Source: Fundidesulfovibrio putealis DSM 16056 | GTDB taxonomy: Bacteria > Desulfobacterota > Desulfovibrionia > Desulfovibrionales > Desulfovibrionaceae | Assembly (NCBI RefSeq): GCF_000429325.1 | Contig: NZ_KE386886.1 | Coordinates: 143,653-207,652 of the forward strand | Length of the DNA: 64,000 nt | Reading direction: 5' to 3' | Part shown: piece by piece, positions 8,858 to 64,000 of the stretch | Position numbering within the stretch: the first letter of the stretch is position 1 | How the letters are laid out: the number at the start of each line of letters is the position of its first letter | Program-made: the position numbers and the translations under genes | The notes under the pieces: generated by a model | The model's database searches: none | What the model was told of the DNA's origin: nothing | The model's input: the letters and a program-made list of their open reading frames with translations, nothing else

Positions 8858-9388
8858 CTAATCGCCCGGCGCGATGATGGTTTCGCTACCACCCACGCTG
8901 TCCACCACGAAAACCGGCTCGTCGCCCTGCCAGGGGGGGTTCGACTTCCCAGTCATCTCCTCGATGTCCACGCGCACCACGCAGGTGACCGCCAGGACCT
9001 TCTCGTCGTATTTGCCGGTGGGGCCGCCCAGGTGTCCCATGATGAGGTCCAGTCCGCGCTGCTTCTCCGCCGGGTCCTCCACGACCACGGCGCGCCCCGT
9101 GCCCACCACGGACTTGAAGTGCGCGGTGTAGTCGCAGGCCTTGGTCTGGCGCACCAGCGAGTAGGACACCACCGCGTCGAAGCTCACCCGGTCGCAGGCG
9201 CGCAGGCAGTCGGCCTTTTTCCCCTTGTGGGAGCTGTGGAAATACAGCGCGCGGTTCTCGTACCCGAAGCTCACCGGCACCACGTACGGCGACGCGCCGT
9301 CCCACATGGCCAGATGCACGTACTCGGCCCGTCGCAACAGGGCCTCCACCAGTTTGAAATCCTTTATCTCGCGGTCGGACTTACGCAC
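8858..9388 (-). CDS. Pyridoxamine 5'-phosphate oxidase family (NimA-like) flavin-binding protein
   Basis: A 176-residue split-barrel protein resembling the NimA/PNPOx-like family: LLRRAEYVHLAMWDGASPYVVPVSFGYENRALYFHSS is the typical flavin-binding N-terminal half. Members bind FMN, F420 or heme and act as small redox proteins; the substrate here is unknown. The start is a GTG with AAGGAG 7 nt upstream. It lies 42 bp downstream of the amidotransferase gene on the same strand, probably in the same transcript. Confidence 0.82.
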   Translation of the reverse strand: MRKSDREIKDFKLVEALLRRAEYVHLAMWDGASPYVVPVSFGYENRALYFHSSHKGKKADCLRACDRVSFDAVVSYSLVRQTKACDYTAHFKSVVGTGRAVVVEDPAEKQRGLDLIMGHLGGPTGKYDEKVLAVTCVVRVDIEEMTGKSNPPWQGDEPVFVVDSVGGSETIIAPGD

Positions 9389-9430
9389 AAAAACGCTCCT
9401 TGCGATTATTCTTTCAGCCCCGATTGATAC

Positions 9431-48278: not shown

Positions 48279-50327
48279 ATGCCCTCCAGATCCATCGCCA
48301 GCATCATCTCCCGGACCCTCATCCAGCGCACGCTCATCCCGGCGGTGGTCTGTCTGGCGCTGCTGGCCGCCATGCAGGGCATCAAGCAGAAAGACGCCGT
48401 GGAGACCAAAAACCAGGATTTCGCCCAGACCCTGGCCCTCTACGCCGATTCCTACATGGACGGGGCCTACCGTTCCCTGGAGCATTTCGCCGATGCCCCT
48501 CCTTCGGGCACGGGCGTCCCCCTGTCGATGCGCCTGGCGGACATGCTCTCCGTGATGCCCTCCATGGACCGCCTGATCCTGACCGACGCCCAGAACACCA
48601 TCCTGTCCGCCGAGCCTGCCGGACCGCGCGGCCTGGATTTCCCCATCCGCTTCGACAACGCGCACGGCCGCAGATATCTGCTGTCGCGCCCCATTCCCTC
48701 CCCGCTGACGGGCATTCTCACCGTGTTCATCGGCGTTCGGCGAAACACCGGAGGCGTGCTGGCCGGAGAACTGAACCTGTTTGAACTGACCAACCACATC
48801 CAGGCCCTTTCGCGCAACTGGGCAGGAGAGGTCATCCTCTGCGACGCCTTCGGCAACCTGGTGTCCCACCCGGATCCGTCCCTGGTGGCCACCCAGACCA
48901 ACATCGGGGATTCCCCGCTGTTCAAGGCCGCCAGGCAGGGAGAAGCGACCCTCATCTACCGTGAGAACGACGACTTCTTCCTGGGCGCGCATGCCGTCAT
49001 ACCGGGCCTTGGCTGGCTGGTGCTTGTGCGCACCCCGGCGGCCGGAGCCATGGCTCCGGCCCTGGCTCCCGTGGCCGTGGCCGCCGTGGTGATGGCGTCG
49101 GTCTTCATATTTCTTACCCTGATGCTGCGCCGCGAACTGGACAAACGCATCTCAAGCCCCATGGCCCAGGCGGCCACCCGCCTGGACCGCCTGCCGCGCA
49201 ACGCCTCCTACAGGCCAATACCCGACCCGCCCTTTGCAGAGCTGGGGCGTTTCGAGGCGGCCGTTGCGGACATGACCGACCGCATCGCCTCCGGCGAGGC
49301 CCACCTGCGCGAAAGCGAGCGCCGCTTCCGGGCCATTTTCGAGCAGGCCGCCGTGGGGTTGGTGCAGTGCACGCCCCAGGGCAACTTCCTGCGCGCCAAC
49401 AAGCGCTTCACCCAGATCTGCGGCTATACCCCCCAGGACCTCTCCGGCATGAACCTGCTTAAGTTCAGCCTCCCCGAGGACAGGGAGGACGACGCGGACA
49501 ACATGCGCCTTGTGCTCTCCGGGCATCTGCCCTCCTTCGACATGGACAAGCGCCTGCTCGCGAAGGACGGCCAACAGGTGTGGGTTCACCTCACTGCCTC
49601 TGCGGTGCGCGACGACGCAGGCGATGTGCGCTCCATCATCGTGGTGGTGGAGGACATCAGCGCCCGCAGGAACGCGGAAAAGGCCGTGAGCGATTCGCTG
49701 CGCGAAAAGGAGATCCTGCTGCGCGAAATCCACCACCGGGTGAAGAACAACCTGCAGATCATCTCAAGCCTGCTCTACCTCCAGAGCGACCACGTGAACG
49801 ACCCCGAAGCCCTGACCATGTTCCTGGAGAGCCGCAACCGCATCGCCTCCATGGCCCTGGTCCACGAGGAACTCTACCGCTCCGACGACCTCTCCGGCGT
49901 CAACATCCGCGAATACGCCCTGAAGCTCGTCCCCCGGCTGGTGGCCGCCTTCCACTCCGGCAAGGGCATCCAGTGCGCGGTGGAGGCGGACGACGTCTGC
50001 CTGGTGATCGGCCAGGCCATCCCCTTCGGGCTCATAATCAACGAGCTGGTCACCAACGCCGCCAAGCACGCCTTCAAGGGACGCCCCTCCGGCACCATTT
50101 CCGTGGTCATACACGGGGTTGACGGCAGGCTCCAGGCGAGGGTATCTGATGATGGCGTCGGGCTTCCACCGGATTTTGACCCAGCCAGCACGTCCACCCT
50201 GGGGATGCAGCTCGTGGTCCAGCTCACGCGCCAGTTGCGCGGCGAGTTGATTCATGGAGACAGCCAAGGAACGTCGTTCACCCTCAGCTTTCCCGTGACG
50301 GAGGCCCATTCGCATGAGTCCAGCTAA
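48279..50327 (+). CDS. Sensor histidine kinase (Cache, PAS, HisKA_2 type)
   Basis: A 682-residue membrane kinase. A first span at residues 15-33, an external Cache-like region to about 260, a second span near 262-281, and a PAS domain around 340-460. The phosphoacceptor region is LREIHHRVKNNLQIISSLLYLQ (His near 486), the HisKA_2/HWE-like form, followed by ATP-binding INELVTNAAKHAF, DDGVGLPPDF and LGMQLVVQL. The downstream receiver gene overlaps by 14 bp. Confidence 0.92.
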   Translation: MPSRSIASIISRTLIQRTLIPAVVCLALLAAMQGIKQKDAVETKNQDFAQTLALYADSYMDGAYRSLEHFADAPPSGTGVPLSMRLADMLSVMPSMDRLILTDAQNTILSAEPAGPRGLDFPIRFDNAHGRRYLLSRPIPSPLTGILTVFIGVRRNTGGVLAGELNLFELTNHIQALSRNWAGEVILCDAFGNLVSHPDPSLVATQTNIGDSPLFKAARQGEATLIYRENDDFFLGAHAVIPGLGWLVLVRTPAAGAMAPALAPVAVAAVVMASVFIFLTLMLRRELDKRISSPMAQAATRLDRLPRNASYRPIPDPPFAELGRFEAAVADMTDRIASGEAHLRESERRFRAIFEQAAVGLVQCTPQGNFLRANKRFTQICGYTPQDLSGMNLLKFSLPEDREDDADNMRLVLSGHLPSFDMDKRLLAKDGQQVWVHLTASAVRDDAGDVRSIIVVVEDISARRNAEKAVSDSLREKEILLREIHHRVKNNLQIISSLLYLQSDHVNDPEALTMFLESRNRIASMALVHEELYRSDDLSGVNIREYALKLVPRLVAAFHSGKGIQCAVEADDVCLVIGQAIPFGLIINELVTNAAKHAFKGRPSGTISVVIHGVDGRLQARVSDDGVGLPPDFDPASTSTLGMQLVVQLTRQLRGELIHGDSQGTSFTLSFPVTEAHSHESS

Positions 50328-50688
50328 AGTCATGATCGTCGAGGACGAAGTCATTGCAGCCATGGCCACGGCCCGCATGCTCAAGAAGCTCGGCTTCGAC
50401 GTGTGCGGCAACGTCACCTCCGGGGAGGAAGCCCTGCTGGCCTTCGACGGTGAATGCCCCGACATCATCATCATGGACATCCGCCTGGACGGCGAACTGG
50501 ACGGCATCGAGACCACCAGGCAGCTGAAGCTGCGCCGCGACGTCCCCGTCATCTTCGTGACCGCCTACTCCGACGACTCCACCCGCACCCGCGCCGAGGC
50601 CACCAAGCCCCTGGCCTTCATCAACAAGCCCCTGGACATCAGCCAGTTGGAGCACATCCTCTCCAACCTGAGCATCGGCGGCAAGTAA
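50314..50688 (+). CDS. Stand-alone response regulator receiver
   Basis: A 124-residue CheY-like receiver: acidic pair E10-D11, phosphoacceptor D55 in IIMDIRLDG, Thr in FVTAYSDD and Lys in INKPLD. It has no output domain. It overlaps the kinase gene and is thus its likely partner; such receivers commonly pass phosphate onward or act by protein contact. GGAGG lies 8 nt before the ATG. Confidence 0.92.
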   Translation: MSPAKVMIVEDEVIAAMATARMLKKLGFDVCGNVTSGEEALLAFDGECPDIIIMDIRLDGELDGIETTRQLKLRRDVPVIFVTAYSDDSTRTRAEATKPLAFINKPLDISQLEHILSNLSIGGK

Positions 50689-50828
50689 CGCCCTTTCGCC
50701 GCGCAGCCGGGAGTGCGGCAACCGCCCTGAACCGTTTCAGAAATCCTGTCCCGAACCTGGGGGCAAACCTTGGCTTGCCTGTCCAAGTGGCGTACATATC
50801 CCTGCACCACTTTCGAGGAGACACGCCC

Positions 50829-52541
50829 ATGCCCCAACACGTCGTCATAATCGGCGCGGTGGCCCTCGGCCCCAAGGCCGCCTGCCGCTTCAAGCGCCTT
50901 GTCCCGGACGCGAAAGTCACCATGATCGACCGCGACGCCATCGTGTCCTACGGCGGCTGCGGCATCCCCTATTTCATCTCCGGCGACGTGTCCGACCTGA
51001 AAGAGCTGCGCACCACCAGCTTCAAGCTGGTGCGCGACGAGAAATTCTTCCACGACTGCAAGGACATCGACGTCCTCACCCGCACCGAGGCCCTGCGCAT
51101 AGACCGCGAGGCAAAGCGCGTGCACGTGCGCAACCTGGACACCGGCGCGCTCTCGGAGATTCCCTACGACAAGCTGGTCATCGCCACCGGAGCCGCGCCC
51201 CGCAGGCTGAACATCCCTGGCGAAGACCTGCCCGGCGTGCACGCCGTGGCCAACCTGCACGACGCCACCGCCGTCAAGGACATGATCAGCTCAGGTTCGG
51301 CCGGGCGCGCCGTGGTGGTGGGTTCGGGCTTCATAGGCCTGGAAGTGGCCGAGGCCCTGGCGGACATGTGGGGGCTGGAGGTGGCCGTGGTGGAGCTCAT
51401 GGACCACGTGCTGCCCCGTAACATAAGCCCCTCCCTGGCCCGCATGGCGGAGCACCATCTGGCCGAGAAAGGCGTGGAGCTATACTTCGGGGAGAAGGTC
51501 CTGGCCGTGGAGGGCGACGGCAAGGCTCAGCGCGTGGTCACGGACAAGCGCACCCTGGAGGCCGAGCTAGTGATCCTCGCAGCTGGCGTGGTCCCAAGCG
51601 GAGAGCTGGCCCGCGAGGCCGGGCTTGCGGTCTCCCCGCGCGGAGGCGTGCTGGTGGACGAGTTCATGCGCACCTCCGACCCGGACATCTACTCCGGCGG
51701 CGACTGCGCCGAGATCAAGAACGTGGTGACCGGCGGCACAATGCATCTGCCCCTGGGCTCCATGGCCAACCGCCAGGGCCGGGTGATCGGCACGAACCTG
51801 GCCGGAGGCGAAGCGACGTTCCCCGGCGCCGTGGGCTCGTTTGCCATGAAGCTCTTCGAGCGAAACGTGGCCGGGGCCGGGCTCACCCCGGAGCAGGCCG
51901 CGCAGGCCGGGTTCGACGCGCTGTCCGCCCTGGTCATCCAGTTCGACCGCGCCCACTTCTTCCCCGGCAAGGACCTGATGACCCTGGAAGTCACCGTGGA
52001 CAAGAAGACCCGCGCCGTGCTGGGGATACAGGGGTTCGGGTCGGCGGGCGACGCCCTGGTGGGCCGCGTCGGGGCTGTGGCGGCGCTCATGCAGAAGGGT
52101 TGCACGGCGGATGACCTCTCCGTGCTCGAGTACCCCTACTCGCCGCCCTTCTCCTCGGCCATGGACATCGTGAACACTGTTGGCACCGTGGCCGAGAACA
52201 TGCTGGCCGGAATGAACCAGGGCGTCTCGCCGGAAGAATTCGGGCGGCTCTTCGAACAGAAGGGCGAGGCCTGCTTCTTCCTGGACTGCCGCGAACAGGA
52301 CAACGCCGCCCCCTACCTGGAACGACACCCCGGCGTCTGGCACAACATCCCCCAGGGGCAGCTGCGCGAACGCCTGGGTGAGATCCCCAGGGACAAGGCC
52401 GTGGTGCTGGTGTGCAACACGGGCATCCGCTCCTACGAGGCGCAGATCACGCTTGAGCAGGCCGGTTTCAAGGACGTCCTGAACCTGCACGGCGGCATGG
52501 CCGCGCTGAAGCAGAGCGGGGAGGACCCCAACGCGGAGTGA
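50829..52541 (+). CDS. CoA-disulfide/persulfide reductase with C-terminal rhodanese domain
   Basis: A 570-residue flavoprotein. IIGAVALGPKAACRF is an altered N-terminal FAD motif; the redox-active C44 is in SYGGCGIPYFI, the CoADR position. VVVGSGFIGLEVAEAL binds NAD(P)H and GGDCAEI closes the FAD site. From about 470 a rhodanese domain has its Cys in VVLVCNTGIRS. Related enzymes reduce CoA disulfide, CoA persulfide or polysulfide, suiting sulfur metabolism. GAGGAG lies 9 nt before the ATG. Confidence 0.88.
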   Translation: MPQHVVIIGAVALGPKAACRFKRLVPDAKVTMIDRDAIVSYGGCGIPYFISGDVSDLKELRTTSFKLVRDEKFFHDCKDIDVLTRTEALRIDREAKRVHVRNLDTGALSEIPYDKLVIATGAAPRRLNIPGEDLPGVHAVANLHDATAVKDMISSGSAGRAVVVGSGFIGLEVAEALADMWGLEVAVVELMDHVLPRNISPSLARMAEHHLAEKGVELYFGEKVLAVEGDGKAQRVVTDKRTLEAELVILAAGVVPSGELAREAGLAVSPRGGVLVDEFMRTSDPDIYSGGDCAEIKNVVTGGTMHLPLGSMANRQGRVIGTNLAGGEATFPGAVGSFAMKLFERNVAGAGLTPEQAAQAGFDALSALVIQFDRAHFFPGKDLMTLEVTVDKKTRAVLGIQGFGSAGDALVGRVGAVAALMQKGCTADDLSVLEYPYSPPFSSAMDIVNTVGTVAENMLAGMNQGVSPEEFGRLFEQKGEACFFLDCREQDNAAPYLERHPGVWHNIPQGQLRERLGEIPRDKAVVLVCNTGIRSYEAQITLEQAGFKDVLNLHGGMAALKQSGEDPNAE

Positions 52542-53087: not shown

Positions 53088-53309
53088 CTAGGCCTTCTTC
53101 AGGAAGCAGGTCTTCAGCACCAGCCCCTTGACCTTCTCGGCGTTGCACTCGATCTCGCCCTCGTTGTCGGTGAGCCGGATATTCTTGATGAGCGTGCCGC
53201 GCTTGAGCGTGGCGGACGTTCCCTTGACCTTCAGGTCCTTTGTCAGCGTGACGCTGTCGCCGTCTTTCAGCAGCGTGCCGTTGCTGTCCTTGACTTTTAT
53301 CTCGTCCAT
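53088..53309 (-). CDS. PhnA-domain protein (YjdM C-terminal domain only)
   Basis: A 73-residue protein matching the PhnA C-terminal domain: VKDSNGTLLKDGDSVTLTKDLKVKGTS and LKRGTLIKNIRLT. Full-length PhnA/YjdM has an additional zinc-ribbon N-terminus, absent here. Despite the name, PhnA is not shown to act on phosphonates. GAGGAAG lies 5 nt before the ATG at 53309. Confidence 0.85.
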   Translation of the reverse strand: MDEIKVKDSNGTLLKDGDSVTLTKDLKVKGTSATLKRGTLIKNIRLTDNEGEIECNAEKVKGLVLKTCFLKKA

Positions 53310-53406: not shown

Positions 53407-54522
53407 TCAGCCGTTTGCCGGGGTGACGGATGGAGACGCGGGCAGGGTGACCAGGAACGTGGCCCCCGGACGCGCCGAGCGCGCATGCTCCACGGAGCCG
53501 CCCAGGGACTTCATGACCCCGTGGCAGATGGACAGCCCGAGCCCGGAGCCTTTACCCACCTCTTTCGTGGAGAAGAACGGCTCGAAAATACGCTCAGCCA
53601 GGGAGTCGTCCACGCCTGGGCCGGTGTCGGACACCTCGATGCCTACGGTCGCCGGAGCGGCGTTCCGGACGCGAACCGTAAGCGTGCCGCCGGTAGCGGC
53701 CATGGCGTCCAGGGCGTTGTCCGCCAGACGCCCGACCACCTGCTCGATCTCGGCCCTGGGCAGGCGCACCAGGGCAACTGAGGGGTCGAACTCGGTCTTG
53801 ATTTCCACATGAAGGCTACCGGCGCGCTCCCGCACCAGCTCCAAGGCGGAGGCCACGGCCTGCCGCGGGTCGAAATCCACGGTCCTGGGGTCCACGCGCC
53901 CCCCAAGGCTCATGAGCTTGGACACGATGTCCCGGCAGCGCCTGCCCTGGGCCACGATGGCCGCAAGTTCGGCCTGCACTTCAGCCAGGCCCGCGCAGGC
54001 GGCGAACTCCGGTTCCTCCAGGAGGTCCCCGGCCCAGCCCGCCTTCTGCATCATGATGTTCACCGGATTGTTGATCTCGTGGGCCACGCCCTCGGCCAGC
54101 CTGCCAAGCGCCGCAAGCTTGCCCGTCTCGATCATGCGCAGGCTCTCCTCCTGGTTCAGCCTGCGCTCCCCGGCCCGCACCAGCACCCGCACCAGCTGGT
54201 CGAAATTCACGGGCTTCACCAGATAGTCCGCAGCGCCGAGCTTCATACCCCGCACCGCCGTGGCCACGTCCGACTGCCCCGTGAGCATCACCACCTGGAC
54301 CAGCGGCCAGCGCTCCTTGATCTCGCCAAGCACCTCCAGGCCGCTGCGGTCCGGGAGATTCACGTCCAGCACCACCGCCGCCGGGGCCTCGCTCTCCACG
54401 AGCCCTATCCCCTGGGCGGCGTCCACGGCCCACAGCACGGGGAAGTCCCGCGCCAGGAGGCGCTCGGCCAGCAGCCGGACGAAATCGAGCTCATCGTCGA
54501 TGAGCAGGGTCTTGGGACGCAT
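53407..54522 (-). CDS. Receiver-histidine kinase hybrid (soluble)
   Basis: A 371-residue cytoplasmic protein: receiver at 1-120 (D53 in VLDVNLPD, Thr in LTGQSD, Lys in LVKPVN), then DHp with GVAHEINNPVNIMMQKAG and an ATP-binding domain with RLADNALDAMAATG, SDTGPGVDD and GKGSGLGLSI. The receiver-first order suggests its kinase activity is set by another kinase. It is the last gene of the signalling run. Confidence 0.92.
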   Translation of the reverse strand: MRPKTLLIDDELDFVRLLAERLLARDFPVLWAVDAAQGIGLVESEAPAAVVLDVNLPDRSGLEVLGEIKERWPLVQVVMLTGQSDVATAVRGMKLGAADYLVKPVNFDQLVRVLVRAGERRLNQEESLRMIETGKLAALGRLAEGVAHEINNPVNIMMQKAGWAGDLLEEPEFAACAGLAEVQAELAAIVAQGRRCRDIVSKLMSLGGRVDPRTVDFDPRQAVASALELVRERAGSLHVEIKTEFDPSVALVRLPRAEIEQVVGRLADNALDAMAATGGTLTVRVRNAAPATVGIEVSDTGPGVDDSLAERIFEPFFSTKEVGKGSGLGLSICHGVMKSLGGSVEHARSARPGATFLVTLPASPSVTPANG

Positions 54523-54745
54523 GGTCCCCTCCCGGTTGGCGTGTCGCCTTGGCGGTGCGCCAGCTCAAATACCTGTCGGACGCCGGATTCGCGCGGCCCG
54601 CACGCAGTGTCCTGCGCCCGCCGTCTCGCTTCAGCCGTACTCCCGGCCAAGCCCCGGCCGCCGCCTGCCGCGCCCGGCAATGGGGGCGGACAGGCTACAG
54701 GCCAAAGACTTCCCCCGCCCGCGTGTGGGCCGGGGTTGCCGCAAC

Positions 54746-55189
54746 TTACTCGTCCATCACCTTGCGGGCGGTGTCGAAATCGCCCTCTTCGGCCATGGCC
54801 GCGATCACCATGGCGTCTTCGATGCGCTCGCGGTAGGCCTTCTTCACGGTACCCAGCAGCTCGTCGATGTCGATGGGCTTCTTGTGGTAGTGGAACGCGC
54901 CCAGCTTGCGGGCTTCTTCCTCGTCCAGGTCGGTGCCGTGGCCGGTGAGGATGATGATCTGCACCTTGGGGTTGGTGGCGCGGACCTTGCGCAGGACCTC
55001 CATGCCGTCGATGCCGGGCATGCGCAGGTCAAGGACCATGACGTCGGGCTCGTGGGTCTTGACCACGTCCAGCGCAGCTTCGCCGGAGTAGACCACCTTG
55101 GAAGGCACATCGCGCATTTTCATGCGCTCGGCCAGGGTGTTGACGAAATTCTCCTCATCGTCCACGAGAAGCAGCTTGATCTTGTTCAT
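54746..55189 (-). CDS. Stand-alone response regulator with C-terminal tail
   Basis: A 147-residue receiver: acidic D10-D11, D54 in MVLDLRMPG, LTGHG and HKKPID are conserved. A 25-residue tail (ERIEDAMVIAAMAEEGDFDTA) follows. There is no DNA-binding or enzymatic output. It starts 46 bp after the DHp protein's stop and probably exchanges phosphate within this cluster. Confidence 0.9.
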   Translation of the reverse strand: MNKIKLLLVDDEENFVNTLAERMKMRDVPSKVVYSGEAALDVVKTHEPDVMVLDLRMPGIDGMEVLRKVRATNPKVQIIILTGHGTDLDEEEARKLGAFHYHKKPIDIDELLGTVKKAYRERIEDAMVIAAMAEEGDFDTARKVMDE

Positions 55190-55234
55190 ATCCGTCTCCT
55201 TGCAACGTTCGGCGCGCACGCGCCCGCCACTCGA

Positions 55235-55888
55235 TTACGCCTCTCGCCCGGCCTTTCGGAAAGCCAGGCGCACCCCGCCTTCAAGAGCCTCGGCCGCCAG
55301 CAGGCCAGGCTTGTCGCCTGTCAGTGACTTGGCCAGGGACTGGGCCTCCCCGGCATCAAGCGCCTGACACAAAATATCCACATACACCCGGTCGCCGTCC
55401 TCGCCCGGCTCAAGCCGGACGTTGCCCTGTTCCCGGCACCGCCAGGTCACGCCCAGGAGCGCCGCCTCCAGGACCACCAGCACCTCGATCTGCGACGGTT
55501 CGGCCAGCACCGCAGCGGGAGCCTGCCCCACTTCCAGGGTCAGCTTGTGCTTCTTGGCTATGCGCCCCGAAAGCTGCACCAGGAGCCGTACCGAGAAGTT
55601 CAGGTCCGAGCCGTCCTGCCCCTCGTCCGGGGAATGCGCCAGGTGGCTCAGGTGCTCGCACATGTCCTGGCCCCGGGCCACCGAGGACTGCACCTGCGCG
55701 ATGATCTCCTCGAACTTGTCGTTGTACTTGAACTTGGGCCGAAGCCCCATGGACTTGAGCGACTCCTTGCGCGCAAGGGACAGATAGTCGCCAAGAAGCC
55801 CGGATGCCTGCTGGATGGTGGCCAGCACGTTGCACAGATCGTGGCTGAGCGTGGCGGCCATCCGGCCCATGAATCGCGCTTTGTCCAT
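55235..55888 (-). CDS. DHp-containing protein with degenerate ATP-binding domain
   Basis: A 217-residue cytoplasmic protein. ATLSHDLCNVLATIQQASGLL is a kinase-like DHp helix with a candidate His in SHDL. A second domain (residues 110-215) lies in the HATPase position but I find no N, G1, F or G2 box. It resembles histidine phosphotransferases of the ChpT type and could shuttle phosphate between the receivers. CAGGAG lies 5 nt before the ATG at 55888. Confidence 0.75.
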   Translation of the reverse strand: MDKARFMGRMAATLSHDLCNVLATIQQASGLLGDYLSLARKESLKSMGLRPKFKYNDKFEEIIAQVQSSVARGQDMCEHLSHLAHSPDEGQDGSDLNFSVRLLVQLSGRIAKKHKLTLEVGQAPAAVLAEPSQIEVLVVLEAALLGVTWRCREQGNVRLEPGEDGDRVYVDILCQALDAGEAQSLAKSLTGDKPGLLAAEALEGGVRLAFRKAGREA

Positions 55889-55967
55889 TGTCACTCCTGG
55901 CATCCTGCCAGCCGCCAGCCTGCTCGGCGGGATGTCGGCTCCGGTTGCCTCCGGTTCGTACACATGC

Positions 55968-56348
55968 CTAGGCCTTGCCCGCCGCCACGGCCTCGCCAAT
56001 CTTGGCGGTGAGGTCGTCGATGGACAGGGGTTTGATCATGTAATCGAACGCGCCAAGCTTCATGCCGTCCATGCCGTCCTTGGTGGCGCCCTGCCCGGTG
56101 AGCAGGATCACCTGCACGGCGGGATGGCGCTCCCGGATGAGCTTCAAGACGTCCAGCCCCTTGAGGCCTGGCATGAACATGTCCAGCACCACCACGTCCG
56201 GGGGCGTCTCGTCTATCATGCGCAGTCCGGTTTCACCGTTCAGGGCCACGCGGCAGGTCAGCCCGCGCAACTCCAGACGCTCGCTCAGGGTGTGGACGAA
56301 CTCTTCCTCGTCGTCCACGAGCAGGATGTTCCAGTCCTTCATGGTCAT
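55968..56348 (-). CDS. Stand-alone response regulator receiver
   Basis: A 126-residue receiver: D12-D13, D56 in VVLDMFMPG, Thr in LLTGQG and Lys in MIKPLS. The ATG at 56348 lies just inside the gap to the kinase stop (56351), with GGAGG 10 nt upstream. It is clearly co-expressed with the kinase, so it is a likely phosphate acceptor. Resembles the other receiver in the run but differs outside the active site. Confidence 0.9.
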   Translation of the reverse strand: MTMKDWNILLVDDEEEFVHTLSERLELRGLTCRVALNGETGLRMIDETPPDVVVLDMFMPGLKGLDVLKLIRERHPAVQVILLTGQGATKDGMDGMKLGAFDYMIKPLSIDDLTAKIGEAVAAGKA

Positions 56349-56350
56349 GA

Positions 56351-58081
56351 TTACTGAGCCTCCACGGCGGCGGAGGGCGGAGCCATAACCGGCAGGACCA
56401 CCGTGAAGGTGGACCCCACCTGCTCCTGGCTGCTGACCGAGACCTCGCCGCCGAGACGTTTGATGATGCCGTAGGTGATGGACAGACCAAGCCCGGTGCC
56501 CTTGCCGCGCTTGGTGGTGAAGAACGGCTCGAAGATGCACTTCATGGTGTCGTCCGACATGCCGCAGCCGTTGTCCTGGATGGAAAAGCCCACGTGCTGC
56601 TCGTCCTGGTTCCAGCTTTTCACCGTGATGGTTCCCTGGTCGGGGATGGCGGCCAGGGCGTTGTTCAGGATGTTCAGGATCACCTGCTGCAACTGCCCCC
56701 GGTCGGACTCGATGCGCCCGAGCTCAGGCTCCAGGTCCAGGGTAAGGCTCACGCTGCGGTGCTCGGCCTCGCGCGCCAGGAAGCTGGCCGTCTCGGTGAT
56801 CACCTCGTTTAAGCTGAGCCCCTCGATCTTCACATCCATGCGCCGGGCGAAGCCGAGCATGCGGTGGGTGATGCCCCGGCAGCGTTCCACGGCCTTTATG
56901 ATGGCCTCCACCTGGGAGAAGAACTTGACGCGGCCCGGGAAGTCCTCCTGAAGGGTCAGGAGATCCTTGAGCAGCCCGGCCTTCTCGTTGATGATGGCCA
57001 GGGGGTTGTTGATCTCGTGGGCCACGCCTGCGGCCAGGCGTCCGATGGAGGAGAGCTTCTGGGCGTGCTCCACCTGCCGGAAGGCCAGGGCGCGCCGCTC
57101 CTCGGACTCGCGCATGCGGTTGACCAGCATGCCCGTGAAGCGCGACACCACGAAGAAGATGGCCATCACCCCCACCAGGAAGACCAGCAGCAGGTCCCCG
57201 CGCAGGTTGTACCAGGCGTTTATCGCGCCCAGGCGCGGCTTGGCGGCCATCAGGATGAAATCCGTGTTGGGGAAATAGGCGTACGTCAGGTACAGCTCGC
57301 GCCCCTGGGGATCGGTGATGGGGATGACCTGCGGCTCGAAGGTGACCGGCGGCAGCGGCAGCGGGCAGGGCTTGAGCACGTCCCCGTAAAAGTATGAGCT
57401 GGTCTGGAGCACGCCCTTGCGGTTCACCATGAAGGCGTCCGAGCCGGGTTCGAGCCCCATGGCCGCGATGATCTTGTCGAACTGCCGGGTGTCCAGCGTG
57501 GCGCGAAGCACCCAGGACTCGCCGGACTCCGAGGTGTGCTGCATGGCGATGACCACGTGGGGCAGGTTCCTAAAGCCCAGGAACACGTCGGAGATGTACT
57601 TGCCGCTGGCGCGCACCTGGGCGAACCAGTCCTGGCTGGAGTAGTCGCGGTTCTTCAGGTCGTAGGGGCCTACGTAGCTCACCTGCCTGCCGTGGGCGTC
57701 GATGAGGCCAAGGTCCACGAACCCCTCGAATTCCTTGCGCATCACCCGGAAGATGCGCCCCAGGTTGCGCTCGTCGGACAGATCCTGGAAGCTGTAGGCC
57801 TGGGCGATGAACCCCACGGTGGAGGCGCGCTCGGCCAGGAAGAGGTCGATGGTGTTGCGGGTCTTGCCGAGCAGCACGCGCAGCGGGTTCTGCACCTCGC
57901 GGGCCATGGTGGTCTGGAACTCGCTGAAGTTGATGACCGCCATGAGCAGGAGCGGCACCAGCGTCACCACGGCCATGAGCCCCACGATCTTGTACTTCAG
58001 CAGATTGTAGCGCTCGGGCGAGATGGCGTCGTCGCTGGTGTGAAGGTCCCGGAAGTGCCGGGTGAAGATGTCACCGAGCAT
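56351..58081 (-). CDS. Membrane sensor histidine kinase (Cache domain)
   Basis: A 576-residue kinase. First span near residues 32-52 (VGLMAVVTLVPLLLMAV), an external Cache-type region with DYSSQDWFAQV, second span near 300-320 (LLLVFLVGVMAIFFVV), then DHp with GVAHEINNPLAIINEKAG, and ATP-binding ILNILNNALAAI, QDNGCGMSD and GKGTGLGLSI. It is orthodox and complete. GGGAGGAAG lies 3 nt before the ATG at 58081; the NifX-like gene's 3' end overlaps it by 11 bp. Confidence 0.93.
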   Translation of the reverse strand: MLGDIFTRHFRDLHTSDDAISPERYNLLKYKIVGLMAVVTLVPLLLMAVINFSEFQTTMAREVQNPLRVLLGKTRNTIDLFLAERASTVGFIAQAYSFQDLSDERNLGRIFRVMRKEFEGFVDLGLIDAHGRQVSYVGPYDLKNRDYSSQDWFAQVRASGKYISDVFLGFRNLPHVVIAMQHTSESGESWVLRATLDTRQFDKIIAAMGLEPGSDAFMVNRKGVLQTSSYFYGDVLKPCPLPLPPVTFEPQVIPITDPQGRELYLTYAYFPNTDFILMAAKPRLGAINAWYNLRGDLLLVFLVGVMAIFFVVSRFTGMLVNRMRESEERRALAFRQVEHAQKLSSIGRLAAGVAHEINNPLAIINEKAGLLKDLLTLQEDFPGRVKFFSQVEAIIKAVERCRGITHRMLGFARRMDVKIEGLSLNEVITETASFLAREAEHRSVSLTLDLEPELGRIESDRGQLQQVILNILNNALAAIPDQGTITVKSWNQDEQHVGFSIQDNGCGMSDDTMKCIFEPFFTTKRGKGTGLGLSITYGIIKRLGGEVSVSSQEQVGSTFTVVLPVMAPPSAAVEAQ

Positions 58082-58442
58082 GGTCTTCCTCCCTGTCGAA
58101 GAGGATGTCGCCGGACTGGAGCGCGCCTTGCGCATAGCGCTCCAGCACGTCGCGGGCCGGGCCTGCCACGTTGTCCAGCACCTCCACCCGCTTCCAGCGC
58201 AGGTAGTGGTAGTACTCCTCTTCTATACCGCCGCAGATGAGCACGTCCACGTCCTTTCGCAGGATCAGGTCGCACAGGCCGTCCGCCGAAGGGTGCGGCA
58301 GGAGGAAATCCTCGGTCTTGATCTCGCCCACATCGCCGTCGCCGTCCTGGATGACGTCGGCCAGCAGGGCCTCGGCCGCCAGATCGAACCGGGGAGCCAC
58401 CTCGTCCTTGAAAAGCGGGATGAGCACGCGCAGGGTCCGCAT
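58071..58442 (-). CDS. NifX/NafY-family (dinitrogenase FeMo-cofactor-type) protein
   Basis: A 123-residue protein of the NifB/NifX/VnfX fold: VLIPLFKDEVAPRFDLAAEALLADV, and VDVLICGGIEEEYYHYL. Family members bind metal-sulfur clusters or cofactors; its role here, in a signalling run without nif genes, is unknown. GGAG lies 7 nt before the ATG and it starts 3 bp after the upstream AAA+ gene's stop. Confidence 0.82.
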   Translation of the reverse strand: MRTLRVLIPLFKDEVAPRFDLAAEALLADVIQDGDGDVGEIKTEDFLLPHPSADGLCDLILRKDVDVLICGGIEEEYYHYLRWKRVEVLDNVAGPARDVLERYAQGALQSGDILFDREEDHAR

Positions 58443-58445
58443 GGC

Positions 58446-59606
58446 CTAGCTCCTCTCCCCGGCGGCGCGCGGCAGCTGCTTGAGCAGGTGCGCGGGCAGG
58501 CAGGCGGGCGGGATGGCGGATTTGTGGCAGACCATGACCGCGAACTCCACGATGTTGCGCAGCTCCCGCACGTTTCCGGGGTAGTCGTGCTCCAGGAGCA
58601 ATGCCCTGGCCTTGGGAGTGAACCCATGCACTTTCTTGCGGAACTTCCCCGCGAACAGTTCCAGGAAGTGCGTCAGCAGAAATTCGATGTCTTCTGGCCG
58701 TTCGCGCAGCGGGGGCAGGTCCAGGCGCAGGGCTCCCAGGCGGTAGGCCAGGTCCTGTCGCAGCTTGCCCGCGCGCACCAGCGCCTCCGGGGACGTGGGC
58801 GACGAGGCGATGATCTTGGCCTGCGAGCGCACCGGAGTCTGCATTCCGGCGGGCAGGATAGTCCCCTCGTCCACGAAGCGCACCAGCCGGGCCTGCAAGG
58901 CCTCGGGCAGCTCCCCAACGTCGGAGAGGTACACCGAGCCCGCTCCCGCCCGTTGGAACGCTCCCAAGGCTATCCCCCCGGACGTCTGCTTGCGGCCGAA
59001 CAGCTCGGCCTCCAGCGTCTCCGGGGGCATGGGGCCGCAGTTCACGCGCACGAACGGTTCGCGCGAGCGCGGCGACACCTTGTGGATGGCCTCGGCCACG
59101 GCGTCCTTGCCGGTTCCGGTCTCGCCGATGACGATGACCGGGTCGTCGGCCTGGGCCATGGCCGGGATCAGGCGCATGATGCGCTCCATCACCGGGCTCT
59201 TGCCCACCAGCTTGCCGATGCCTCCCGGCTCTTCCAGGCGGCGCTCCAGGTCCCTGACGGCGCTCAGGTCCTCCACCAGATCGATGCGGTAAAGGTCCTG
59301 CCCCTTTGTGTCGCGCACGGGGATGACGCTTATGCGCACCGGGATCTTGCGGCGGTGACGGTTTATGATCTCCGTGTCCGCCGGGCCCTGCACCGGGCAG
59401 TGCCGATGGCACAGCCCGGAGCGCAGCACGTGCCGACAGGGCACGCCCCGGACTTCCTCGCGGGCAAAGCCCGTCAGCCGCTCGAGCGCAGCGTTCAGCG
59501 TCACGACCCGGCCCTCCCGGTCCAGGACGGCCACGCCAAGCGGCAGGCCGTCCAGGATGGCCGGGAAGTCGAGGGAAGCGAGGATGCCGGGGGGCACGAA
59601 TGTCAT
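58446..59606 (-). CDS. Degenerate sigma-54-type AAA+ protein with PAS domain
   Basis: A 386-residue protein. An N-terminal PAS-like domain (LDGLPLGVAVLDREGRVVTLN) with CRHVLRSGLCHRHC cysteines is followed by AAA+: Walker A GETGTGKDAVA is intact. But where GAFTGA should be is SGGIALGAFQRAG, the Walker B is VYLSDVGELP instead of LFLDEvGE, and sensor I reads IIASSPTS. It stops soon after YPGNVRELRN with no FIS-type helix-turn-helix. It is thus unlikely to activate sigma-54 promoters and may be a signalling adaptor. Confidence 0.85.
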   Translation of the reverse strand: MTFVPPGILASLDFPAILDGLPLGVAVLDREGRVVTLNAALERLTGFAREEVRGVPCRHVLRSGLCHRHCPVQGPADTEIINRHRRKIPVRISVIPVRDTKGQDLYRIDLVEDLSAVRDLERRLEEPGGIGKLVGKSPVMERIMRLIPAMAQADDPVIVIGETGTGKDAVAEAIHKVSPRSREPFVRVNCGPMPPETLEAELFGRKQTSGGIALGAFQRAGAGSVYLSDVGELPEALQARLVRFVDEGTILPAGMQTPVRSQAKIIASSPTSPEALVRAGKLRQDLAYRLGALRLDLPPLRERPEDIEFLLTHFLELFAGKFRKKVHGFTPKARALLLEHDYPGNVRELRNIVEFAVMVCHKSAIPPACLPAHLLKQLPRAAGERS

Positions 59607-59714
59607 GATGTACGTTCTCCTAGCGTTGGTACTTCGGGTAGAAGGTGCGCCCGGTCGCCGGGCGCGTCGCTAGAATCATTGTGTTCACGGTTAAATACAA
59701 GTCCAATTACGCGT

Positions 59715-60149
59715 TTAGTGCGCGCCGCCGCCAACGATTCCCGAAGCGGCCAGGCTCAGCACCAGCACTTCCAGGAAGGCCAGCAGCGCGAAGACCTTGT
59801 CGCCCTTCTTCAGGAAGGCCGGGATGAGCGGAATGTAGGCGATGATGGTCAGGCCCGCCAGCAGCACGATGCCCGCGAAGTTCAGGAAGTCGCCCTTGCC
59901 CATGAGCACGAGCCAGCCCCAGCCGGTGGGGACGTTGCCCTGCGACAGGTAGGTGCCAACGGGCTGCGACCACAGCACCGTGACCTTCTCCAGGGGGATG
60001 TGGGGGGTCATGATGCCCGCCACGTAAAGGATATAGGTCACCGCCATGAGGGCCAGGCCGCCCCAGCAGCCCCAGAAGAGGATGTCGGCGTAGAGGATCT
60101 GTTCGCGAGGCGTCTCGATGGGCGCACCAACGGTTTTGTTGTCAGCCAT
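59715..60149 (-). CDS. Small membrane protein, partner of TauE/SafE gene
   Basis: A 144-residue protein with about three membrane spans (ILFWGCWGGLALMAVTYILYV, FAGIVLLAGLTIIAYIPLIP, LLAFLEVLVLSLAASGIV). Not otherwise recognised. AAGGAG lies 7 nt before the ATG. It begins 27 bp after the TauE/SafE stop, suggesting a shared complex. Confidence 0.75.
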   Translation of the reverse strand: MADNKTVGAPIETPREQILYADILFWGCWGGLALMAVTYILYVAGIMTPHIPLEKVTVLWSQPVGTYLSQGNVPTGWGWLVLMGKGDFLNFAGIVLLAGLTIIAYIPLIPAFLKKGDKVFALLAFLEVLVLSLAASGIVGGGAH

Positions 60150-60176
60150 GACTAGTCTCCTTAGCTCGTCGAAAAA

Positions 60177-61151
60177 TTAGAAGCCCAGGCCCTTCATGAA
60201 CGCCTTGCCGCCAGAGAACAGCAGCACGCCGATGACCATGTAGCGGATGAACTTGGGTTTGGCCTTGGCCAGCAGCTTAACACCCGCGAACGAGCCGAAC
60301 ATCAGGCCGATGACCGAAGGAATGGCCATGAGCGGGATGACGCAGCCCTGGTTCAGGTAGACCCAGGCGGCGGAGGTGTCGGTGATGGACAGGAGGAACT
60401 TGGAGGTGCCAACGGCCACCTTGAGGGGCGCGCCCATCATCAGGTTGAGCACCGGGACGTTGGCCCAGCCAGCGCCCAGGCCGAACATGCCGGCCATGAC
60501 GCCGATGATGATGAACATCAGCAGGCCCGGCAGGGTGCGGTGGGTCTTCCAGTTGACGGTCTCGCCGGAGGAGGCGTCGAAGTAGGAACCGTTCATGCCC
60601 AGGGCCAGGCCGATGGCGTCCTGCTTGGTGACCACGGGGTAGGCCGTGTTCTTGGAGACCAGCAGCAGCACCGCGATGAACAGGATGGTGCCGCCCAGGC
60701 ACAGCTGGATGACGTTGGTGGGCAGCGCCAGGCCGATCATGGCGCCCACGATGGCGCAGGCGCTGGCGATGAGCGCCACGGGCAGGGCCAGGCGCAGGCT
60801 GGCCAGGTTTCTCTTCAGAAGACCAGGGCCTGCGGCCAGCGCTCCGGCCAGGGCCACCAGGAGGCCCGCGCCGCGCACGAAGTCCAGATGGAACGGGAAG
60901 AATCCGCTGACCAGGGGCACGAACAGCACGCCGCCGCCAACGCCCGCCAGCACCGCGATGATGCCCAGGATGAAACAGAAGAACAGAAGAATTGTAGGCC
61001 ACATCCACCAGGGCCCTTCAGGCGCGCCTGCCGCCTGGGCGGCCTCCACCATGGCCTTGCCGCCGTCCAGGGATGCGGCATAGGCGAACGCCCCCCCCAA
61101 CAGGCCCAGAGCCACCATTACCATTCCGATTCGCAACCAGCTCGATTTCAT
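60177..61151 (-). CDS. TauE/SafE family permease
   Basis: A 324-residue membrane protein with about eight spans. GIIAVLAGVGGGVLFVPLVSGFFPFH and GVMAGMFGLGAGWANVPVLNLMMGAPLKVAVGTSKFLLSITDTSAAW are the two repeated halves of TauE/SafE (DUF81). Members move organosulfonates, sulfite or other anions. The ATG at 61151 fits the N-terminal signal-anchor MKSSWLRIGMVMVALGLLGGAFA. It heads the signalling run and is read away from the sigma-54 activator. Confidence 0.88.
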   Translation of the reverse strand: MKSSWLRIGMVMVALGLLGGAFAYAASLDGGKAMVEAAQAAGAPEGPWWMWPTILLFFCFILGIIAVLAGVGGGVLFVPLVSGFFPFHLDFVRGAGLLVALAGALAAGPGLLKRNLASLRLALPVALIASACAIVGAMIGLALPTNVIQLCLGGTILFIAVLLLVSKNTAYPVVTKQDAIGLALGMNGSYFDASSGETVNWKTHRTLPGLLMFIIIGVMAGMFGLGAGWANVPVLNLMMGAPLKVAVGTSKFLLSITDTSAAWVYLNQGCVIPLMAIPSVIGLMFGSFAGVKLLAKAKPKFIRYMVIGVLLFSGGKAFMKGLGF

Positions 61152-61241
61152 GTTCGCACGCTCTCCCTTGCTTCCAGATTCAGAAAGGACCGTCCGGCGA
61201 AAACGTCGGCGGCACGCCCCCACGCTTGTTCTTTCCTGCAC

Positions 61242-61259
61242 AATCAAGAAGCGTACCAG
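61242..61259 (-). promoter_or_regulatory. Candidate sigma-54 promoter for TauE/SafE gene
   Basis: On the minus strand CTGGTACGCTTCTTGATT places GG and GA ten bases apart, close to the GG-N10-GC of sigma-54 promoters (consensus TGGCACG-N4-TTGC). The -12 GC is GA, a weak point. It lies about 90 bp before the TauE/SafE start and near the candidate activator sites at 61310-61345. Confidence 0.4.
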
Positions 61260-61309
61260 GATGAAACCCGCATGGATCAACGGTTTGCGGGCACCGCTTC
61301 GCGCCAGAA

Positions 61310-61345
61310 CGGCAAGAATCTGCCGGAAGCGGCAAATTATTGCCG
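61310..61345. promoter_or_regulatory. Pair of CGGCA-N6-TGCCG operators
   Basis: CGGCAAGAATCTGCCG (61310-61325) and CGGCAAATTATTGCCG (61330-61345), with centres 20 bp apart, about two helical turns. They lie between the TauE/SafE and sigma-54 activator genes and suit an enhancer (activator) binding array. Confidence 0.7.
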
Positions 61346-61433
61346 CAGGGGTCTTCACATTTTTGAAGCGAGAACGTATCTGAAGGGTGTGAGGCCGGGA
61401 TAATCCAGCGAATTCGAGCAGAACCGGACGGGA

Positions 61434-62477
61434 ATGGGCGACTATATGAAAAACGGCAAAAATTTGCCGCTTCGGCTGGACCTGGACGACCTCCCAGAGG
61501 AAGGCGGCGGCGTCACCGCCGTGCTCATCGGGTCCAGATCCATGCGCGAAGCGCACCAGCTGGCCTCCCAGGTGGCCACGTCGGACGCCCCCGTGCTGCT
61601 CCAGGGCGAGTCCGGAACAGGCAAGGAACTGTTTGCCCGCCTCATTCACGCCATGTCCAACCGCCGGGAGAAACCCTTCGTCCCGGTGAACTGCGGCGTG
61701 CTGCGCGACGAATTATTCGCGGATAAATTTTTCGGGCACGAGGCAGGGGCCTTCACCGGCGCGTCCAAGCAGCAGAAGGGCAGCTTCGAGTTGGCCGGGG
61801 CCGGGACGCTGTTCCTGGACGAGGTGGGCGAAATCCCCCCCAACAACCAGGTGGACTTCCTGCGGGTGCTGGAGCAGCGCACATTCCGGCGTCTGGGCGG
61901 CGAGAAGGAGCTGCCCTTCGAGGCCCGCATTGTGGCCGCCACCAACCGCAACTTCCTGGAGATGGTCAAGGCCGGGCAGTTCCGGGCGGACCTCTACTAC
62001 CGGCTGAACGTGGTGCCGGTGTTCCTGCCGCCGCTCAGGCAGCGCCGCGAGGACATCCCCATCCTGGCCGGGCACTTCCTGGAGCACTTCGGACTGCGCT
62101 ACCACAAGCACGGCATGAGCCTCTCGCCCGAGGCCCTGGCGGTGCTGAGCAGCTACGCCTGGCCGGGCAACGCCCGCGAGCTGCGAAACCTGATCGAGCG
62201 CCTCGTGCTGGTGCACCCCGAGGGGGTCATCGAGGCCCAGGATCTCCCGGTGGAGGTGCAGCCTGGCTCCGCCGTGCAGGTGGAGGAGGCCGGACCCGAC
62301 AGTCTGCTCCTGGACGCAGCCGTGCGCGACGCCGAGATACGGGCCATCATAAGGGCCTTCCGGCACACGCGCGGCAACCGTGCCAAGACCGCCGACGTGC
62401 TGGGGATCTCCCCGCGCACCCTTCGCCACAAGGTGAAGGAGTACTCGCTCAGCCTGGCGCGCTACTCCAAGGGCTGA
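61434..62477 (+). CDS. Sigma-54-dependent transcriptional activator
   Basis: A 347-residue activator without a long sensory domain (only about 35 residues precede the AAA+). GESGTGKELFA is Walker A, GAFTGA is intact in HEAGAFTGASK, LFLDEVGEIP is Walker B, and a C-terminal FIS-type HTH (GNRAKTADVLGISPRTLRHKVKEY) binds DNA. Without a receiver, it may be controlled by another protein or amount. It is divergent from the TauE/SafE operon, the likely target. An ATG at 61446 is an alternative. Confidence 0.9.
   Translation: MGDYMKNGKNLPLRLDLDDLPEEGGGVTAVLIGSRSMREAHQLASQVATSDAPVLLQGESGTGKELFARLIHAMSNRREKPFVPVNCGVLRDELFADKFFGHEAGAFTGASKQQKGSFELAGAGTLFLDEVGEIPPNNQVDFLRVLEQRTFRRLGGEKELPFEARIVAATNRNFLEMVKAGQFRADLYYRLNVVPVFLPPLRQRREDIPILAGHFLEHFGLRYHKHGMSLSPEALAVLSSYAWPGNARELRNLIERLVLVHPEGVIEAQDLPVEVQPGSAVQVEEAGPDSLLLDAAVRDAEIRAIIRAFRHTRGNRAKTADVLGISPRTLRHKVKEYSLSLARYSKG
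61454..61469. promoter_or_regulatory. Third CGGCA-N6-TGCCG site inside activator gene start
   Basis: CGGCAAAAATTTGCCG has the same half-sites as 61310-61345 and lies at codons 7-12 of the activator gene, where binding could repress its own synthesis. Confidence 0.6.
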
Positions 62478-62794: not shown

Positions 62795-64000
62795 ACGTCA
62801 ACAGCCTGTTTCACCTCGTGTTCTTCATCGTGCTGCTGCTGGCGGCGTCCTGGCCGCTGGGCCTGTACATTGCCCGCGTCTACCAGGACCAGCCCTGCGG
62901 CCTGGACCGCGCGCTCGGCCTCGTGGAGCGCCTGCTGTACCGCCTGTGCGGCGTGGACGCCCGCCAGGAGATGGACTGGAAGGCCTACGCCCTGTCCATG
63001 GTGGGCCTGAACGCCCTGGGCCTCCTGGCGGTCTACGCCCTCCAGCGGCTTCAGGGCGCTCTGCCCCTGAACCCGGCTGATCTTTCGGCGGTGGACCCCT
63101 TCGTGGCCTTCAACACCGCCGTGAGCTTCGCCACCAACACCAACTGGCAGGCCTACGGCGGCGAGACCACCATGAGCTACCTCACGCAGATGCTTGCGCT
63201 CACGGTGCAGAACTTCCTGTCCGCCGCCACGGGCATGGCCGTGATGGCCGCCCTGATCCGTGGCCTTGCCCGGCGCGAGACCGACAGGCTGGGCAATTTC
63301 TGGCGCGACGTGACCCGCTCGGTGCTCTACGTCCTGCTGCCCCTGTCCATCGTGCTGAGCCTTGCGCTCATGTGGCAGGGCGTGCCCCAGACCCTGGAAG
63401 GCCCGGCTGCCGCCGCGTTCCTGGAGCCTGCCAGCTACGACAAGCCCGTGCTGGATGAAACGGGCAAGCCGGTCCTGGACGAGTCAGGCACCCCCAGGAC
63501 GGAACCGGCCACGCAGGCGCAGCAGAGCATCGCCCGCGGCCCCGTGGCCTCCCAGGTGGCCATCAAACAGCTGGGCACCAACGGCGGCGGCTACTACAAC
63601 GTCAACTCCGCCCACCCGCTGGAGAACCCCACGCCGCTCACCAACCTGCTGGAGATGCTGGCCATTCTGCTGATACCGGCAGCGCTTTGCCACACGTTCG
63701 GGGTGATGGTCGGCGACAAGCGGCAAGGTTTTGCCGTTCTGGCCGCCATGACCATCCTGTTCGCCGGGTTCGCGCTGCTGACGCTCCAGGCCGAATCCGC
63801 CCTCAACCCGACGCTTGCGGGCCTGGGCATGGAGTCCGCCCCCAGCCTGGAGGGCAAGGAGCTGCGCTTCGGCGTGGCCGGGTCCGCCCTGTGGGCCGCC
63901 GTCACCACTGCCGCGTCCAATGGTTCGGTGAACTCCATGCACGACAGCTTCACGCCCCTTGGCGGCATGTGGCCGATGCTGCTCATGCAGCTTGGCGAGG
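62791..64000 (+). CDS. kdpA: K+-transporting ATPase subunit KdpA, N-terminal part
   Basis: The gene runs past the window end. About 403 residues show the channel-like pore: selectivity segments AVSFATNTNWQAYGGE, KQLGTNGGGYYNVNS and TTAASNGSVNSMHDS, each with the Gly/Asn set of KdpA. A loop near residues 210-235 carries a short tandem repeat (KPVLDETG, then KPVLDESG) not in E. coli KdpA as I recall it. KdpA forms the high-affinity potassium path of KdpFABC. It should be continued by kdpB. Confidence 0.94.
   Translation, partial: MNVNSLFHLVFFIVLLLAASWPLGLYIARVYQDQPCGLDRALGLVERLLYRLCGVDARQEMDWKAYALSMVGLNALGLLAVYALQRLQGALPLNPADLSAVDPFVAFNTAVSFATNTNWQAYGGETTMSYLTQMLALTVQNFLSAATGMAVMAALIRGLARRETDRLGNFWRDVTRSVLYVLLPLSIVLSLALMWQGVPQTLEGPAAAAFLEPASYDKPVLDETGKPVLDESGTPRTEPATQAQQSIARGPVASQVAIKQLGTNGGGYYNVNSAHPLENPTPLTNLLEMLAILLIPAALCHTFGVMVGDKRQGFAVLAAMTILFAGFALLTLQAESALNPTLAGLGMESAPSLEGKELRFGVAGSALWAAVTTAASNGSVNSMHDSFTPLGGMWPMLLMQLGE

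Follow-up and report, generated by a model that had tools for sequence, protein, structure and literature searches.

A possible split enhancer-binding protein beside a TSUP permease operon of Fundidesulfovibrio putealis

Here, we describe a conserved signalling and transport locus in a 64,000-nucleotide stretch of the Fundidesulfovibrio putealis DSM 16056 genome (assembly GCF_000429325.1, contig NZ_KE386886.1, positions 143,653 to 207,652), referred to below as the window. Nine co-oriented genes, headed by a TauE/SafE (TSUP) permease, face a divergent sigma-54 activator, i.e. an enhancer-binding protein (EBP), which is bare in that it has no regulatory domain. One of the nine encodes a PAS-AAA+ protein of the same kind that has lost its GAFTGA loop and its DNA-binding helix-turn-helix (HTH). 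Our judgement is evenly poised on whether these two proteins form a split EBP, a regulatory PAS-AAA+ subunit plus a bare DNA-binding activator, that controls the operon of a sulfur-anion permease. Somewhat more tentatively, we propose that what was once a one-component sigma-54 activator now serves purely as a regulatory AAA+ subunit, with a PAS sensor and ATP binding but neither a sigma-54 loop nor DNA binding, seated in or docked onto the ring of a separate bare activator. A NifX-type protein would be the third partner and would report metal or sulfur-redox state, so that expression of the permease is set accordingly.

Four observations together make a split EBP the best explanation: a series of decay states in the PAS-AAA+ protein, the all-or-none occurrence of activator, PAS-AAA+ protein and NifX-like protein (hereafter the triad), palindromes found across the order where the activator is present, and a signalling relay that is separable from the triad. 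These observations are the new content of this report. The locus itself is genuine and conserved, and a related one has already been partly described.

Locus organization and distribution

The genes of the locus are listed below in window coordinates.

61434-62477, plus strand: bare sigma-54 activator, AAA+ with GAFTGA and a Fis-type HTH, without a regulatory domain; DVU2956-like (Pfam, motif check)
60177-61151, minus strand: TauE/SafE (TSUP) permease (Pfam TauE PF01925, E 6.8e-36)
59715-60149, minus strand: 144-amino-acid membrane protein, companion of the permease (co-occurrence with TauE; no Pfam match)
58446-59606, minus strand: PAS-AAA+ protein without GAFTGA loop or HTH; DVU2960-like (Pfam PAS and Sigma54_activat, 1.6e-39)
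58071-58442, minus strand: NifX-like protein (Pfam Nitro_FeMo-Co PF02579, 3.2e-7)
56351-58081, minus strand: dCache sensor histidine kinase (Pfam dCache_1, 9.2e-16, with HisKA and HATPase)
55968-56348, minus strand: lone receiver RR1, ATG at 56348 (Pfam)
55235-55888, minus strand: DHp protein with a CA-like domain lacking an ATP site, likely a histidine phosphotransferase (Pfam, alignment, structure model)
54746-55189, minus strand: lone receiver RR2 (Pfam)
53407-54522, minus strand: receiver-histidine kinase hybrid (Pfam receiver, HisKA and HATPase)

The minus-strand run extends from 61151 down to 53407 and, read from permease to receiver-kinase, has gaps of 27, 108 and 3 nt, an 11-nt overlap, and gaps of 2, 79, 45 and 223 nt. 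A first-pass annotation of this DNA had described nine co-oriented genes with these domains next to a divergent sigma-54 activator, and its content, order and coordinates all hold. It was also right to see no DNA-binding output inside the run and to report an AAA+ protein without GAFTGA: the motif is absent from the run's AAA+ protein and present in the divergent activator. Its description of that activator as full stands for the AAA+ domain and the HTH (Pfam Sigma54_activat, 3.5e-64, and HTH_8) but not for an N-terminal regulatory domain, which is absent, the AAA+ match beginning at residue 34. Nor is the activator a mere neighbour; it is a conserved member of the locus, with the conserved candidate operators described below.

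A marker survey found the membrane partner in 92 of 199 genomes of the order, the window's own included. The census used here covers 90 of the 91 loci of other genomes, leaving out one fragmented match (G073); loci and genomes are numbered L and G. The closest genomes to the window locus are those of Fundidesulfovibrio. Activator, non-GAFTGA AAA+ protein, NifX-like protein and Cache kinase are all present at 46 of the 90 loci. A further 24 hold the kinase run without activator, AAA+ and NifX genes (one of them cut upstream), another 15 lack this kinase run as well as the triad but do hold permease and partner, and five, cut downstream by contig ends, show none of the triad. Mixed triads do not occur: all three genes are present at 46 loci and all are absent at 38, and the six loci cut by contig ends show none.

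Gene order is equally consistent. Among the 46 activator loci, 42 are uncut, of which 41 keep the full order and the remaining one lacks only the receiver-kinase; two rows list the NifX and kinase genes as swapped, which we attribute to starts called on stop-to-stop open reading frames. Because the whole order recurs in this way, the arrangement is not due to chance. The first-pass view of one conserved system, in which kinase, receivers and a phosphotransfer-like DHp protein accompany a sulfur-anion-type permease, is borne out to that extent, and the scattering of genes that would have spoken against it is refuted.

A second sample of 80 named contigs, the best 80 of 156, partly overlaps the 199 genomes, so the two are not independent. 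Its 89 loci comprise 42 with a decayed AAA+ protein and two with a GAFPGA form, each with activator, NifX-like protein and kinase; two with an intact AAA+ protein (GAFTGA and HTH), NifX-like protein and kinase but no activator; 12 with the kinase and none of the triad; and 31 in which the kinase run is missing or a contig end intervenes. The activator was found at 45 of 46 loci with a non-GAFTGA AAA+ protein, the remaining one being cut on that side. No locus with the activator has a PAS-AAA+ protein in which GAFTGA is intact.

Decay of the PAS-AAA+ protein

The window's PAS-AAA+ protein keeps its PAS domain, Walker A motif and sigma-54 AAA+ fold, while the GAFTGA loop and C-terminal HTH that define a sigma-54 activator are gone. 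Decay states were scored from alignments; absence of the HTH was judged by Pfam for the window protein only, and in its relatives by tail length and sequence. A tree of 58 AAA+ proteins was built with the loop columns and C-terminal tail excluded, omitting L048 (truncated), L061_1 (the second piece of a split frame) and L031 (the contig of L014). All 13 intact proteins fall on one side of a branch supported at 100/99. On the other side, two GAFPGA proteins that retain the HTH (100/100) split from 43 without it (100/99), and these 43 comprise four with a proline-containing loop (93/89) and 39, the window protein included, with a shortened loop.

By parsimony on these states, the order of decay would be GAFTGA to GAFPGA with the HTH kept, then loss of the HTH, then deletion of the loop. 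This is not a resolved ladder, because the branching among the 43 HTH-less proteins is not fixed, and the best tree takes two changes to the shortened loop. The GAFPGA state occurs in all five census genomes of one genus (g35) and also in Desulfovibrio sp. A2 (L057), which has the activator and NifX-like protein as well and which we take to be a near relative of D. vulgaris Hildenborough.

Walker A is retained in 49 of 49 AAA+ rows, and the ratio of nonsynonymous to synonymous change (pN/pS) in four same-genus comparisons is 0.21, 0.32, 0.43 and 0.39 for the AAA+ gene vs 0.20, 0.29, 0.35 and 0.34 for the activator gene. These ratios indicate that the PAS-AAA+ gene is under purifying selection, about as constrained as the activator gene, and they speak against a pseudogene. 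A canonical D-E Walker B is found in none of 47 AAA+ proteins, vs all 47 activators, the window's among them. The census activators match GA[FY]TGA and an HTH signature in 46 of 46 cases by pattern.

A C-x8-C-x3-C motif lies in the PAS region (window 59394-59441) and is found in 42 of the 49 AAA+ rows, that of the window included. It is partly lost in three of six Fundidesulfovibrio genomes, and is seen also in the aligned intact relatives L020-L030. Such a motif could possibly serve as a metal, Fe-S or thiol sensor. In the NifX-like protein, Cys57 is present in 59 of 59 rows; ORP, a protein to which we return below, is presumably also of the NifX family.

Outside this cassette, nine of the 11 loci L020-L030 pair an intact PAS-EBP, which has both GAFTGA and HTH, with an immediately downstream NifX-like gene (L020-L024, L026 and L028-L030); at L027 the NifX gene is nearby on the opposite strand, and L025 has none. 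Judged from these gene neighbourhoods, a wider EBP-NifX pair exists in the Desulfovibrionales. One genome, G021, holds both the decayed cassette and an intact pair (L019 and L021), and among the intact relatives this pair is closest to the decayed clade (82/83 support).

Palindromes and a candidate promoter

Three CGGCA-N6-TGCCG palindromes lie between activator and permease in the window, together with one sigma-54-like site.

61454-61469, no strand assigned: palindrome CGGCAAATTTTTGCCG, within the activator gene, 20 nt past its called start (pattern search)
61330-61345, no strand assigned: palindrome CGGCAATAATTTGCCG, permease upstream region (pattern search)
61310-61325, no strand assigned: palindrome CGGCAGATTCTTGCCG, permease upstream region (pattern search)
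61243-61258, minus strand: sigma-54 -24/-12-like site, TGGTACG-N4-TTGAT (score 10)

Exact copies of the palindrome are found within 600 nt of the permease at 43 of the 46 activator loci vs none of the 44 other census loci, and the three remaining activator loci have copies with one mismatch; the rate in shuffled upstream sequence is 0.0045 per region. The pattern occurs 24 times in the whole genome, vs eight times for a reversed control. A tighter form, CGGCAA-N4-TTGCCG, has only three genomic copies, two at the locus and one within kdpA. The palindromes are probable binding sites of the divergent activator. The kdpA copy is also the fourth palindrome of the window (CGGCAAGGTTTTGCCG, 63721-63736); it may be due to chance or may mark a second target. 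We considered a role in Kdp function or potassium, as kdpA follows the activator, and dropped it because the recurring pairing is that of activator and permease (kdp neighbours were not counted).

The sigma-54-like site is weak on its own, as 22 of 500 shuffled versions of the 300-nt upstream sequence score at least 9; the same site is present in L014 and L015. Across loci, a sigma-54 promoter pattern was found at 15 of 44 labelled as having the activator, with a shuffle rate of 0.022 per region, and at one of 47 labelled as lacking it, namely L048, which in fact has one. By a wider rule both L046 and L048 among these 47 have the activator, and they are the only two of the set with palindromes; the 47 also include L043, a contig end with a decayed AAA+ gene, where activator status cannot be judged. 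Scans for sigma-70 promoters and terminators gave nothing above shuffles (1 vs a mean of 1.1 and 6 vs a mean of 6.1, respectively).

Permease and membrane partner

The TauE permease is 76-90% identical to its counterparts in eight related cassettes, and the 144-amino-acid partner is present at 88 of the 89 loci that hold it. This partner, aligned for 46 of 89 sequences, has no Pfam match, and a fold search of the PDB gave no match at E<=0.001. In the phylum, 45 of 297 genomes encode it, and 42 of these 45 have aprA, vs 78 of the 252 others (Fisher p 8e-16, uncorrected for kinship). The three partner genomes without aprA comprise one weak match, one partial match and one whose genus-mates carry aprA; in four of the 42 aprA genomes the partner match is only weak (E 1e-7 to 1e-10). 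In D. vulgaris, DVU2958 is placed among TSUP proteins in clade B, a conserved, proposed sulfate-transporter clade to which the sole candidates for sulfate transport in two sulfate reducers belong (PMC5840216). The permease is likely a sulfur-anion permease, its substrate being suggested by these associations.

The relay

The kinase run contains the parts of a phosphorelay. Its DHp protein matches HisKA at 0.0054, under the curated cut-off, and has no HATPase match in Pfam, while His16 and Asn20 are present in all 53 aligned rows (53 of the 62 sequences at hand). The structure model is confident (predicted local distance difference test score, pLDDT, 90.5) and resembles kinase DHp-CA structures. 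ChpT and Spo0B likewise combine a DHp with a CA-like domain that has no ATP site, and the window protein has the same combination of a phospho-acceptor histidine in the DHp helix pair and no ATP site; neither of the two is among the 50 listed of 230 fold-search matches with E<=0.001. From its sequence and model, it is likely a histidine phosphotransferase. RR2 has no output domain, yet in three of the four same-genus comparisons its pN/pS is below that of all nine other genes (0.08, 0.10 and 0.23); in the fourth its value is 0.34 and that of the permease is lower.

A Cache kinase tree of 65 picked rows groups the loci without the triad in a single clade (100/100). Its sister is the GAFPGA clade (100/99), and the intact-AAA+ systems branch off outside both. 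The outgroup in this tree does not form one side of a branch, and its rows L148 and L154 sit on a very long branch. Since the triad-less loci form a single clade, the triad was, most simply, lost once and as a block while permease, partner and relay stayed. The idea that the relay drives transcription is unsupported, given that this lineage lacks activator, AAA+ and NifX genes together and still has the relay.

A receiver gene lies upstream of the permease at 14 of the 24 triad-less kinase loci. In L062, the one reduced locus tested, it encodes a receiver with a LuxR-type HTH regulator (8983-9657). The relay may have gained a DNA-binding output in the triad-less lineage, which weakens the claim that it acts only on the permease.

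Just downstream of the window's run are a PhnA-domain gene (53088-53306, minus strand) and, at 50314-52541, a lone receiver and a pyridine nucleotide-disulphide oxidoreductase with a rhodanese domain (plus strand).

A model for the locus and its alternatives

We propose that the operon is the Fundidesulfovibrio form of a DVU2956-DVU2967-type locus, with a TSUP permease, its membrane partner and its own signalling proteins. The divergent bare EBP would bind the CGGCA-N6-TGCCG palindromes and drive the operon from a sigma-54 promoter. Its sensing half would be the second, decayed EBP inside the operon, which kept the PAS domain, Walker A and usually the arginine fingers and lost the sigma-54-contact loop and the DNA-binding domain. 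Either as a member of the bare EBP's AAA+ ring or through contact with it, this PAS-AAA+ protein would act together with the NifX-like protein to set the activity of the EBP according to redox, metal or sulfur state. The other signalling proteins (Cache kinase, RR1, DHp protein, RR2 and receiver-kinase) would make up a relay that is separable from the triad and probably tunes the permease or some target elsewhere.

Several points weigh against a split EBP. The intact relatives already have T-E at Walker B, without the canonical aspartate. The two arginine fingers, whose positions we placed in the alignment by what we take to be those of PspF, are both missing from L032, L034, L039 and L040 (Solidesulfovibrio and kin); L018/L086 and L077/L080 lack the first. 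Mirror-tree analysis of 43 loci, tried as support for contact between the two proteins, came out negative: the partial correlation is 0.04 for activator and AAA+ protein, i.e. no co-evolution signal for this pair, and 0.55 for activator and Cache kinase. The change arose in a single clade, which leaves the association without independent replication, and linkage alone can cause adjacent genes to be acquired or to disappear jointly. Finally, the correspondence with the DVU genes is drawn from descriptions and near relatives, not from the D. vulgaris sequence.

The strongest alternative, which we consider unlikely, is that the decayed PAS-AAA+ protein left sigma-54 control altogether and became an ATP-binding sensor working with the NifX-like protein, the relay or the permease, leaving control of the bare EBP to autoregulation through its own level or to the Cache kinase relay. 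The mirror-tree values speak for it, the Cache kinase giving the activator's strongest partial correlation, as do the palindrome at the activator start and the occurrence of the PAS-EBP and downstream NifX gene at loci without the cassette. Joint absence of activator, AAA+ and NifX genes where the kinase remains argues the other way, as does the fact that loss of GAFTGA accompanies presence of the activator.

More doubtful still is a branched phosphorelay, from Cache kinase and receiver-kinase to RR1, DHp protein and RR2, that controls the divergent activator and thereby the permease. The relay parts are complete and in fixed order, the phospho-acceptor histidine is invariant in the aligned DHp proteins and the activator correlates with the kinase, but 23 census loci (plus the one cut upstream) keep the kinase run without activator, AAA+ gene, NifX gene or palindromes, and the activator has no receiver domain. 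That the AAA+ gene is a functionless decaying relic, as loss of its loop, HTH and canonical Walker B might suggest, is very improbable in view of its activator-like purifying selection in all four comparisons, its presence at 46 of 46 census activator loci and its invariant Walker A.

If a split EBP is correct, the intermediate states show how a sigma-54 activator can come apart, with one ring subunit left to sense and a bare one to activate. Zhu et al. are said to have tied DVU2956 to biofilm and hydrogen sulfide in 2019, and producing DVU2960 or DVU2962 reportedly also lowers biofilm formation. Lowering of biofilm formation by DVU2956 is given in a review (PMC8586430). Taken with a permease resembling proposed sulfate transporters, the DVU2956 tie to biofilm and hydrogen sulfide suggests that the circuit may link sulfur supply, sulfidogenesis and corrosion.

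Comparison with known systems

The first-pass annotation knew of no described system with this gene set. An apparent D. vulgaris counterpart is in fact described by Kazakov et al. (2015; PMC4641369), and from the published descriptions and near relatives our locus looks like an ortholog of DVU2956-DVU2967. In that account, DVU2956 is an EBP without an N-terminal domain, divergent from the DVU2957 operon, a sigma-54 operon that is labelled transmembrane transport and holds a second EBP-like gene, DVU2960. Purified DVU2956 binds the region upstream of DVU2957, and no such binding was seen with DVU2960; the functionality of DVU2960, whose motif is GAFPGA, is called unclear, and control by a partner or a cascade is suggested for EBPs without N-terminal domains (PMC4641369). 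The window has the same features, namely an N-terminal-less EBP with GAFTGA, an altered second EBP-like gene and a TSUP permease, but in its AAA+ protein the entire loop and the HTH are gone, whereas DVU2960 has lost only the threonine. The words NifX, dinitrogenase and sulfite are absent from the main text of that paper. Our literature searches found no publication of the split-EBP reading, which, if true, offers a testable explanation for the puzzle of why one of the two proteins binds and the other does not.

A functional likeness is with FleQ and FleT of Rhodobacter (Cereibacter) sphaeroides, where a second EBP is encoded in an operon that the first one drives (PMC11999139, PMC7277832) and FleT, an EBP without a DNA-binding domain, forms a hetero-oligomer with FleQ (PMC11999139). 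That system is flagellar, not one of transport, and the accounts of FleT in these sources mention neither loss of GAFTGA nor a PAS domain. In VnfA1/VnfA3/VnfZ of Azotobacter (PMC9542535) and HrpR/HrpS/HrpV of Pseudomonas syringae (PMC4145663), paralogous EBPs likewise act together with a small accessory protein, but the partners described there are co-activators and none is an output-less EBP. The ORP operons with DVU2106 resemble our locus in that a sigma-54 EBP controls its operons via palindromes (PMC3897727); they differ in having other genes, labelled cell division (PMC4641369), and a single EBP.

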